Shown here: positions 13,241-17,207 of the stretch, piece after piece | Layout: every line of letters begins with the position of its first letter | How positions within the stretch are numbered: the first letter of the stretch is position 1 | Origin: Nitrospinota bacterium | Lineage (GTDB): Bacteria; UBA8248 | Assembly (NCBI GenBank): GCA_009839615.1 | Contig: VXPH01000047.1 | Location: 1 to 46,028 of the forward strand | Direction: 5' to 3' | DNA: 46,028 nucleotides | The notes under the pieces: model-generated | Seen by the model: the letters and a program-made list of their open reading frames with translations, nothing else | The model's database searches: none | Told to the model about the DNA's origin: nothing | Program-made: the position numbers and the translations under genes

Positions 13241-15238
13241 ATGGTTGCTTTCTCAAACATGGCCGCAATCTTCGGGATTGCGGGGTTGGTTCTGGCGGCG
13301 GTGATTTACAACTGGATTTCAAAGCAATCAGACGGCAACGATCTGATGCGGAAACTCGCTGGCCAGATTCATGAAGGCGCAATGGTGTTCCTGAAAAGGG
13401 AATACAAGATTCTCGCGATTTTCGTCGTGGTCGTCTTCGTTCTTCTGAGCGTCGCCATATCCCCGAAAACGGGCGTGGCGTTCATCGTCGGTGCCATTTG
13501 CTCGGTTCTCGCCGGCTTTTTCGGCATGAACTCGGCCACGAAGGCGAACGTGAGAACGGCGGCTGCGGCGAATTCGGGCGGTGGCCAGGAAGGCGCGCTT
13601 TCCATGGCGTTCTTCGGCGGAACCGTCATGGGTCTTTCCGTCGCGAGTCTGGGACTTTTGGGCGTGGGCGCGTTGTTCTGGTATTTCGACGTGCTGGGGA
13701 ATGCGACGAACGTGACCATCATCAACGGCTTCTCGATGGGTGCCAGCTCCATCGCGCTGTTCGCGCGCGTGGGCGGCGGCATTTTCACGAAAACGGCGGA
13801 TGTGGGCGCAGACCTCGTCGGCAAGGTGGAGGCGAACATCCCCGAGGACGATCCGAGGAATCCAGCTGTCATCGCCGACAACGTGGGCGACTGCGTGGGG
13901 GACGTCGCGGGAATGGGCGCCGACCTGTTCGAATCCTACGTCGGCGCCATCATTTCGACGATTTTCATCGGCTCGACCATCGGCACAGCCCTGGGCGCTA
14001 ACAGCTCGGCGGCGATGGCGCTGCCTCTGCTGCTGGCCATGATGGGCCTGATCGCCTCCTCCATCGGCATTGCCTCGATGAAGGTGTTGGCTTCGAAAAA
14101 CCCGGCCGTCGCGCTCAGAAGCGCCACCTTAATCGCTACGGTCATATTCATCATCCTGGCGTATTTCATCACGAGCGCTTTGGGACTGAAAGCCGGCGTG
14201 TTCGGCTCGGTTCTCTTCGGCGCGGCCGGCGGCATCCTCATCGGCTGGCTCACCGAGTATTACACCGGAACAGGTGGAAAGCCCGTCGGCGAAATCGTCG
14301 CCGCCTCCGAAACCGGAGTGGCGACGAACATCATCGGCGGCTTCGCAGTGGGTCTCGAGAGCGTATGCGCGCCGTTGATCGTGTTGGCGGTGGTTACCCT
14401 GGTCTCGAACGGCTGGGCGGGTCTTTACGGTATCTCCATCGCCGCCGTGGGAATGCTGGCGACGATCGGCATCACGATGTCGGTCGATGCGTACGGCCCG
14501 ATTGCCGACAACGCGGGCGGGATCACGGAAATGAGCGAGTTGGGGCCGGAGACGCGGCAGATTACCGACGGCCTCGATGCGCTGGGGAACACCACGGCGG
14601 CCATCGGCAAGGGTTTCGCCATCGGCTCCGCCGCCCTGACGGCGCTGGCATTTTACGCCGCATACACGAAAGCGGCCGATCTGCAGCAGATCAACCTCAC
14701 CGAGGCGAAAGTGGTGGCCGGCATGTTCATCGGCGGGGCGATCCCGTTCCTCATCGGGGCGCTCACCATGAAATCCGTCGGCAAGGCGGCGTTCATCATG
14801 ATTCAGGAAATCAGGCGTCAGTTCCGCGAGATTCCCGGCATCATGGAGGGCACGGCGGACCCCGACAGCGCGCGCTGCGTCGACATCAGCACCCAGGCCG
14901 CGCTCAAGGAAATGGTGCTCCCCGGCGTCGTGGCTGTCGTCGCTCCCATCGTGGTGGGGTATCTGATGGGCAAGGAGGCTTTGGGCGGCATGCTCGCCGG
15001 CGCCCTGCTCTCGGGCGTTCTCGTCGCCTTGCTGATGGCGAATGCGGGTGGAGCCTGGGATAATGCGAAAAAAGAGATAGAAGACGGCAAACTCGGCGGC
15101 AAGGGCTCCGAGGCCCATAAGGCCGCGGTCGTGGGCGACACGGTGGGAGACCCGATGAAGGACACCTCGGGCCCGTCGATGAACATCCTGATCAAGTTGA
15201 TGTCCATCGTTTCCCTCGTTTTGGCGCCGCTTTTCTAG
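13241..15238 (+). CDS. hppA: Membrane-bound ion-pumping pyrophosphatase, potassium-dependent type
   Basis: This 665-residue protein has about 16 membrane helices and couples hydrolysis of inorganic pyrophosphate to proton or sodium export. The signature [11 protein letters not shown] is at 187-197, followed by [30 protein letters not shown]. The [17 protein letters not shown] and [21 protein letters not shown] segments hold the other acidic clusters. [10 protein letters not shown] near 449-458 carries alanine where potassium-independent enzymes have lysine, so it should need potassium. Glu231 in DLFES is compatible with either sodium or proton transport. A strong AAGGGAG site precedes the ATG. 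The gene is probably monocistronic, with its own gaps on both sides. Confidence 0.96.
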
Positions 15239-15272
15239 TGAGAGCGAGGGTTTATTAACCAAAGGAGAATTC

Positions 15273-15294: not shown

Positions 15295-15338
15295 ATGGCC
15301 CACCGGGGGCATGTGTGCTAACCTTCAGCCATTATTGG

Positions 15339-15393
15339 CTCCTCGCTCCGGTCGAAAAGAGACCGGGGCCGCTCAGTCCGGGAGGAGGATTGA
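15339..15393 (+). promoter_or_regulatory. rpsF leader resembling the S6:S18 complex-binding motif, sequestering the ribosome binding site
   Basis: The bases just before rpsF fold into an outer stem CTCCTC (15339-15344) with GAGGAG (15382-15387). Directly inside is a nine-pair hairpin (15345-15353 with 15361-15369, loop GAAAAGA). A 12-base bulge on the 3' side (15370-15381) contains CCG at 15378-15380. A bulged CCG flanked by a stem and a hairpin is the hallmark of the described S6:S18 autoregulatory motif, which mimics the 16S rRNA site. The outer stem pairs with the Shine-Dalgarno GGGAGGAGG of rpsF (start 15394). Binding of S6:S18 could thus lock translation off. The operon encodes both S6 and S18, as required. 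Confidence 0.72.
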
Positions 15394-15804
15394 ATGAGAC
15401 AGTACGAAACGATGGTTTTGCTGTCCCCCGAACTCACCGATGAAACCGTGGAAGAAAAGATTTCCGGTTTCGAGAAAAAGGTGACCGAGGGGGGTGGAGA
15501 AGTTCTGAACGTCGATCGATGGGGCAAGAAGCGCCTCGCCTATCCCATTCAGCGCCAGCGTCACGGCATCTATTTCATCGTCACATATCATTCGGAGCCG
15601 GTAGTGGTGGCGGACATCGAGCGTGATATGCGCATCGATGAAGAGACGTGGCGCTATATGACGGTGCGGATGGATGAGGTTCTCCTGAGAAAACTCGAGA
15701 AAAACGCAAAAAGCGCAGCCGCCAGAGAAAGAGAGAGCGCTTCGGAGGGGGGTGATGGCGATTCCCAACGCCGACCCACGCCCGCCTCGTCAGACAACTC
15801 GTAA
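15394..15804 (+). CDS. rpsF: 30S ribosomal protein S6
   Basis: This ribosomal protein of 136 residues binds 16S rRNA as a heterodimer with S18. It begins MRQYETMVLLSPELTDE and contains the family segment DRWGKKRLAYPIQRQRHGIYF and ERDMRIDEETWRYMTVRMDE. The C-terminal 35 residues are a charged, Ser/Glu/Lys-rich extension, a little longer than in E. coli. It is first in the conserved rpsF-ssb-rpsR-rplI operon. A GGGAGGAGG ribosome binding site lies in a predicted regulatory stem. Confidence 0.97.
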   Translation: MRQYETMVLLSPELTDETVEEKISGFEKKVTEGGGEVLNVDRWGKKRLAYPIQRQRHGIYFIVTYHSEPVVVADIERDMRIDEETWRYMTVRMDEVLLRKLEKNAKSAAARERESASEGGDGDSQRRPTPASSDNS

Positions 15805-15821
15805 ATGACGAGGGGATATTT

Positions 15822-16244
15822 ATGGCTCAGATGAATTCTGTTTACCTCCGCGGCAATATGACGCGCGATCCGGAAAAACGGTTTCTGCCTTCCGGAAATT
15901 CCGTGGTTTCTTTCGGGTTCGCGGTCAACCGGCGGTACCGCAGCGGCGATGAGTGGAAAGAGGATACGTGCTTCGTGGACGTGGTGGTCTATGGGCGGCA
16001 AGGCGACTGGGTGATGGAGCAGACAAGCAAAGGCAGCCCGCTCGTGGTGGAAGGGCGTTTGAGCTACCGTGCATGGGAAGCACAGGACGGCTCGAGGCGC
16101 AGCAAGCATGAAGTGGTGGCGAACAACGTCCATTTCCTGTCCACCCGGGCCGAGATGACGGGAGGCGGCGGGGCGAGGAGCACGGAATCCTATACGCCGC
16201 CAGCCCAGGACTCGCCAATGACGGATGACGACATACCATTTTGA
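15822..16244 (+). CDS. ssb: Single-stranded DNA-binding protein
   Basis: The 140-residue protein has an N-terminal OB fold (about 1-105): NSVYLRGNMTRDPEKRFLPSGNSVVSFGFAVNRRY and the W-K-E-D-T-x-F-V-D-V strand. A short flexible linker leads to the acidic tip DDDIPF, which recruits DNA repair and replication partners. The linker is short compared with E. coli SSB (178 residues). SSB coats single-stranded DNA at forks. Placement between rpsF and rpsR is the classic arrangement and links replication supply to ribosome synthesis. Confidence 0.97.
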   Translation: MAQMNSVYLRGNMTRDPEKRFLPSGNSVVSFGFAVNRRYRSGDEWKEDTCFVDVVVYGRQGDWVMEQTSKGSPLVVEGRLSYRAWEAQDGSRRSKHEVVANNVHFLSTRAEMTGGGGARSTESYTPPAQDSPMTDDDIPF

Positions 16245-16278: not shown

Positions 16279-16548
16279 ATGGCGCTTGTTCCCCGTGGAT
16301 TCGGTGATAAGAAAAGGAAGAGAAAAAAGCGTTTTCAGCGCAAGAAAATATGCCGCTTCTCGGCGGATGGCGTGGCGTATATCGACTACAAGGACGTGAA
16401 AACGCTTCGAAACATGGTGAGTGAGCGGGGAAAAATCATTCCCCGCCGGGTGACCGGCACCTCCGCCCGCTTCCAGCGGCAGTTGACGACGGCGATTAAG
16501 CGCGCCCGCTACATGGCGTTGATGCCCTACACCGTAGACCATTCATAA
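16279..16548 (+). CDS. rpsR: 30S ribosomal protein S18
   Basis: This is a small basic protein of 89 residues. The lysine-rich N-terminus ([17 protein letters not shown]) leads into the conserved core [47 protein letters not shown]. It binds the 16S rRNA central domain with S6 and is the proposed effector partner in rpsF-leader autoregulation. TAGGAGATAGAT precedes the ATG as a strong ribosome binding site. Confidence 0.98.
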
Positions 16549-16565
16549 GCCGGAGATATTGAACG

Positions 16566-17207
16566 ATGCGCTTGATATTGCGTAAGGACATAGAGAATCT
16601 CGGAGAGGTGGGAGACGTCGTCGAAGTAGCCGACGGCTACGGGCTCAACTACCTCATTCCGAAAGGCCTGGCGCTTCACGCCACGGCGAGCACGGTGCGC
16701 GCGACGCAGCACGAACAGCGGCTGCGCGATGCGCAAATCCAGGCGGCGAAGCGAAGCGCGCAGGATTTTGCGGGCGAATTCTCGGGTATAGAGCTCGAAT
16801 TCTCGATGCGCGTGGGCGCGGACGGCAGGCTGTTCGGTTCGGTGACGAACCGGATGATCGAGGACGCCCTGCAGGAGAAGGGCCTTGACGTGAACCGCCG
16901 GAGAATCGTTCTGGATGAGCCGATCAAAAAGGTCGGTACGTATGACGTCGACATCCGCCTGCACCAGGAGGTGAGGGCGTCGGTTCAGGTAAGGGTGATG
17001 CCCGATGAGGCGTCCCTGGCGGATGAGGCCGAAGCGGAAGAAGCTGCTGCCGGTACGGAAGAGGCGGCTGTAGCCGAGGTGGAAGAGGCTGTTGAGGGAG
17101 CGGATGAGGTTCAGGCCGAAGCAGCAGCCGAGGCTGTTGCGGTGGTTGTCGAAGATGAGCCGGAAGAAAAACCGGACGCAGAAGAAGAGGAAGAGAAAGC
17201 CGAATAG
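16566..17207 (+). CDS. rplI: 50S ribosomal protein L9 with acidic C-terminal extension
   Basis: L9 spans the large subunit with two globular domains joined by a helix. The N-terminal domain MRLILRKDIENLGEVGDVVEVADGYGLNYLIPKGLA is at 1-40. The C-terminal rRNA-binding domain follows the helix (LFGSVTNRMIEDALQEKGLDVNRRRI, ending near VQVRVM at about 145). About 65 further residues consist of Glu/Ala/Val repeats, so the protein is 213 residues against a usual 148-150. The tail resembles the one on L25 in this window. It is the last gene of the S6 operon, followed by two stem-loops, the second with a T run. Confidence 0.95.
   Translation: MRLILRKDIENLGEVGDVVEVADGYGLNYLIPKGLALHATASTVRATQHEQRLRDAQIQAAKRSAQDFAGEFSGIELEFSMRVGADGRLFGSVTNRMIEDALQEKGLDVNRRRIVLDEPIKKVGTYDVDIRLHQEVRASVQVRVMPDEASLADEAEAEEAAAGTEEAAVAEVEEAVEGADEVQAEAAAEAVAVVVEDEPEEKPDAEEEEEKAE

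Follow-up and report, generated by a model that had tools for sequence, protein, structure and literature searches.

A probable S6:S18-responsive rpsF leader in an uncultivated Nitrospinota genome

In the genome of an uncultivated Nitrospinota bacterium (assembly GCA_009839615.1), the short leader preceding rpsF is very probably the known S6:S18-binding autoregulatory element, through which an excess of S6:S18 would repress the operon by occluding the Shine-Dalgarno (SD) sequence. The leader lies in a window of 46,028 nucleotides (contig VXPH01000047.1), the whole stretch of DNA that was analysed, and all features described below are on its forward strand. The nearest named relatives of the source MAG are Nitrospinota and Candidatus Tectomicrobia MAGs. 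With this finding, the range of an autoregulatory RNA already proven elsewhere would come to include an uncultivated lineage, that of Nitrospinota/Tectomicrobia-type genomes, in which the Rfam model misses it. Its main practical point is that this model, RF02893 (RpsF_leader), is too narrow and under-reports the motif.

Architecture of the leader

The entire motif, together with the spacer to the ATG, occupies positions 15339-15393. Its closing stem, H1, consists of six Watson-Crick pairs between the anti-SD strand CTCCTC (15339-15344), which is paired in 100% of the 16 distinct family leaders and is also supported by the covariance model R1 presented below, and GAGGAG (15382-15387), which includes the rpsF SD and ends six bases before the ATG at 15394. 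H2 is a nine-pair hairpin with one G-U pair that joins GCTCCGGTC (15345-15353) to GACCGGGGC (15361-15369); both strands show compensatory changes among relatives, and the terminal loop GAAAAGA (15354-15360) is variable. On the 3' side, H2 is connected to H1 by a 12-nt bulge, CGCTCAGTCCGG (15370-15381), which carries CCG at 15378-15380 (bulge positions 9-11) and in which the CC is invariant in the 16 distinct family leaders. By analogy with the E. coli element, CC 15378-15379 is expected to be the contact site of S18, equivalent to C719/C720 of 16S rRNA. The first-pass annotation, made from the letters alone, had described the CTCCTC/GAGGAG stem, the nine-pair hairpin and a 12-base bulge presenting CCG, and all of these proved exact to the base. 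A further small hairpin (AGCC 15327-15330 with GGCT 15337-15340) was considered as part of the motif and rejected: its conservation does not extend to the whole family, and the predicted transcript start lies beyond its 5' arm.

Operon context and putative promoter

The leader stands immediately 5' of rpsF and in the same operon as rpsR, which is the context expected of an S6:S18 leader. According to Pfam assignments, hppA (H+-pyrophosphatase) is followed by rpsF-ssb-rpsR-rplI and dnaB. rpsF (15394-15804) encodes ribosomal protein S6 (bS6; PF01250, E 1.9e-29), ssb (15822-16244) a single-strand binding protein (PF00436), rpsR (16279-16548) ribosomal protein S18 (bS18; PF01084) and rplI (16566-17207) ribosomal protein L9 (PF03948 and PF01281). 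The S18 protein is 61% identical to that of E. coli and, in an alignment of the two, keeps the RNA-contact residues IKRAR, with K74, R75 and R77 corresponding to E. coli K60, R61 and R63. The 16S rRNA of the same genome likewise keeps the CC at the S18 site (GGAAGAACACCTGTGGCG / ACACCTGTGG). At the 3' end of hppA, a terminator-like hairpin with a weak T-run (15228-15246) may separate this gene from the rpsF operon.

A block at 15296-15324, recognized from conservation only, is the probable rpsF promoter: TGGCCC at the -35 position, a 17-nt spacer and the extended -10 element TGTGC-TAACCT. The pattern TGGCC[C/G]/17-18/TGTGN-TARNNT occurs upstream of the motif in 17 family leaders, of which three (L011, L013 and L017) depart from it slightly. 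A standard sigma-70 promoter scan found nothing for the block upstream of rpsF; the block is similar to a promoter of the extended -10 type, its -35 element being unusual. Since the pattern has a single exact match in the whole genome, it does not, as it stands, define a general class of promoters. Transcription would probably start near 15331, that is, about 8 nt before H1 if the promoter is real, and the leader would then be little more than the operator itself.

Conservation and covariation

rpsF was found in all 17 other family members examined and the leader motif in 16 of them. The motif is absent upstream of rpsF in the remaining member (L018, genome G009, contig DFQF01000027.1, UBA3496), a smaller genome that has kept rpsF with an AT-rich leader. 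Across the 16 distinct family leaders, 96.7% of the cells are paired and the covariation score exceeds that of all 500 shuffles. Within the family, two-sided changes are confined to H2; H1 shows no such change among these 16 leaders, only U-A to U-G replacements, as expected of a strand that must double as the SD. Leaders from other families were therefore collected as a test of H1, giving a comparison set of 99 sequences (98 rpsF leaders of other bacterial families and that of E. coli).

In an alignment of 42 leaders (A4), 97.4% of the cells are paired and changes on both sides affect 9 of the 12 pairs (4/6 in H1 and 5/6 in H2), a level reached by none of 500 shuffles; cells with two-sided changes number 68, against 16.3 in shuffles. 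These values are to be read with the proviso that fitting the alignment to the model biases it towards the structure, and that some of its rows are related sequences, so that they are not independent. Compensatory changes are thus present in both stems, which was the outcome looked for when covariation among the rpsF leaders of relatives was proposed as a check. The change of the innermost H1 pair from U-A to C-G is common to the whole family and may represent one event.

Covariance model searches

Ten leaders from other families served as the seed of the covariance model R1, from which both this family and E. coli were left out. As the length of the bulge varies, the sequences of an initial seed alignment (A2) did not share one register, and it had to be rejected; the seed alignment finally used (A3) comprises leaders of equal bulge length. 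The match of R1 at 15337-15389 is the best in the window and in the whole genome (34.3 bits, the next scoring 13.3), with E values of 6e-8 and 4.9e-6, respectively. Among 42 leaders outside the seed, R1 also recovers, at 22.0 bits, the leader of E. coli, for which there is experimental proof.

A search with the Rfam S6:S18 model had been suggested as a further check, and this one turned out negative: RF02893 gives no match at the site, either at its gathering cut-off (37 bits) or at E values up to 10. Only one of 14 control genomes passes the cut-off. The one that passes is E. coli, because its leader by itself scores 110.1 bits, far above the cut-off. The rpsF leader of B. subtilis has been reported to bind S6:S18; as a control genome, B. 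subtilis fails the cut-off. Clear leaders from other families (L031, L022, L023, L024, L027 and L028) are likewise without a match to RF02893, even at E values up to 5. A missing Rfam match was therefore rejected as a sign that the motif is absent, E. coli being found and other clear cases missed. We attribute the failure at the present site to the narrowness of the model and, since the cut-off is not reached, class the site under the broader published motif and not under RF02893.

Mechanism and alternative readings

In E. coli, a leader-lacZ fusion is repressed fourfold by S6 and S18 together, and this repression requires the conserved CC and the H1 and H2 stems, being lost in CC mutants (Babina et al. 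2015, PMC4647458). K60 and R63 of E. coli S18 are expected to contact the CC of the leader, which mimics C719/C720 of 16S rRNA (PMC4647458). From the work in E. coli and B. subtilis we infer S6:S18 binding, translational repression and coupling down the operon for the window leader as well. Once there is more S6 and S18 than free 16S rRNA, the S6:S18 dimer would become available for the leader and would bind the bulged CC(G) beside H2, as it does at CC 719-720 of the rRNA. Binding would lock H1, the weak stem that closes the motif and pairs the SD with CTCCTC, and ribosome entry would be blocked. Repression would then reduce the amount of S6 and also, by coupling or decay along the operon, that of SSB, S18 and L9. 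The first-pass annotation had already proposed that the repressor directly blocks ribosome access in this lineage; occlusion of the SD is well supported as the likely mode, but it is not specific to the lineage, the same arrangement being found in E. coli (PMC4647458).

The predicted folding of the leader without protein raises the question of how firmly H1 forms by itself. In the minimum-energy fold of the leader alone, H2 is kept and H1 is replaced by another hairpin, in which TCAGTCC (15373-15379) pairs with GGATTGA (15387-15393), covering the CC and leaving the SD in the loop. The predicted energies are -27.0 kcal/mol for H2 with this alternative hairpin and -25.5 kcal/mol for H1 with H2, and the predicted probability of forming H1 without protein, about 0.24 for this leader, ranges over 0.24-0.97 among relatives. 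According to these predictions H1 is marginal in the protein-free leader, and its weakness is consistent with a stem that needs stabilisation by protein. They can also be read as pointing to a genus-specific two-state leader, whose protein-free RNA prefers the second hairpin, so that S6:S18 must outcompete it and the threshold of repression is set in this way. This reading is unlikely. All seven members of the genus can form some version of the second hairpin, and for four of them it is predicted to be the best fold, but most other genera of the family lack it, as does E. coli; the SD sequence by itself accounts for the CC-GG core, and the gap of 1.5 kcal/mol lies within the error of the model. 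It would, besides, add to the S6:S18 operator and not replace it. Slightly less likely still is the full claim that the operator of this genus is bistable, with a CC-hiding, SD-exposing hairpin in competition with the SD-hiding H1; if this were so, the leader would genuinely switch between two states, with an 'on' state built into the RNA.

The two remaining alternatives dispense with the operator as it is known. The leader might be of a different ribosomal-protein kind that departs from the usual use of S6:S18, like the unrelated rpsF leader of Chlorobi, or it might be a structure without protein ligand that only tunes basal translation. We consider this very improbable. The silence of RF02893 at the site would fit it, as would the precedent of a lineage-specific rpsF leader in Chlorobi (PMC7247131), but the match to a model built across families, the fixed position of the CC and a geometry equal to that of E. 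coli all speak against it; moreover, the Chlorobi motif is reported to be unlike the rRNA site (PMC7247131), which the motif in the window resembles. Chance pairing between a purine-rich ribosome binding site and an upstream pyrimidine run has some initial appeal, in that an SD-like GAGGAG readily pairs with CTCC-type runs. Its probability is nevertheless negligible, since none of 351 shuffled leaders reaches the pairing score of the window leader, the motif recurs in 16 of 17 relatives and the stems covary across families. With the shuffles, the covariation within the family, the R1 match and the covariation over 42 leaders taken together, we regard this reading as refuted. The identification as an S6:S18 motif, first made from the letters alone, is by comparison well supported by the R1 match, the covariation and the E. 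coli geometry.

Comparison with known S6:S18 leaders

The large bulge and the direct pairing of the SD had been put forward as making this leader a useful variant of the family. This does not hold, as E. coli and cross-family leaders share both features. Parsed by the same script, the E. coli leader has an H1 of GTTCCTT/AAGGAGC. Its bulge, TGAATAATCCGT, likewise measures 12 nt and carries CCG at positions 9-11, and six bases separate H1 from the ATG, which is exactly the register of the window leader. An SD inside H1 is the published arrangement in E. coli (PMC4647458). Outside the family, 49 of the 99 leaders (E. coli included) have the motif over the SD; the bulge measures 9-12 nt in 40 of these 49, and in 45 the CC starts four bases before the 3' strand of H1, the same offset as in the window. 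Pairing of the SD in H1 is thus the general arrangement of the motif family, and many bacterial families share the geometry of the E. coli leader, with a bulge of 12 nt, a CC that begins four bases ahead of the SD strand and the SD itself within H1. Judged by its sequence, the leader is an ordinary S6:S18 operator, which illustrates a known switch well and is no variant.

The closest well-studied counterpart is the E. coli rpsF_leader (RF02893; Matelska 2013, Fu 2014, Babina 2015). Both leaders have H2 stacked directly on the SD-containing closing stem, and both operons contain rpsF, rpsR and rplI. They differ in the innermost H1 pair (C-G in the window, U-A in E. coli), in H2, which is GC-rich and short-looped in the window whereas the E. 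coli loop is long, in the presence of ssb in place of priB, and in that the Rfam model does not match the window leader. S6:S18 leaders of other families (L136, L163, L022 and L146) share with the window the arrangement CUCCU(U/C)-GCUC...GGGC-bulge with CC-(A/G)AGGAG and the same position of the CC; their bulges are mostly of 10-12 nt, compared to 12 nt here, and the other differences are in sequence details only. The S6:S18 leader of Chlorobi, like that of the window, precedes rpsF-ssb-rpsR-rplI (PMC7247131), but it is reported to be a separate structure, whereas the leader described here has the rRNA-like CC bulge.
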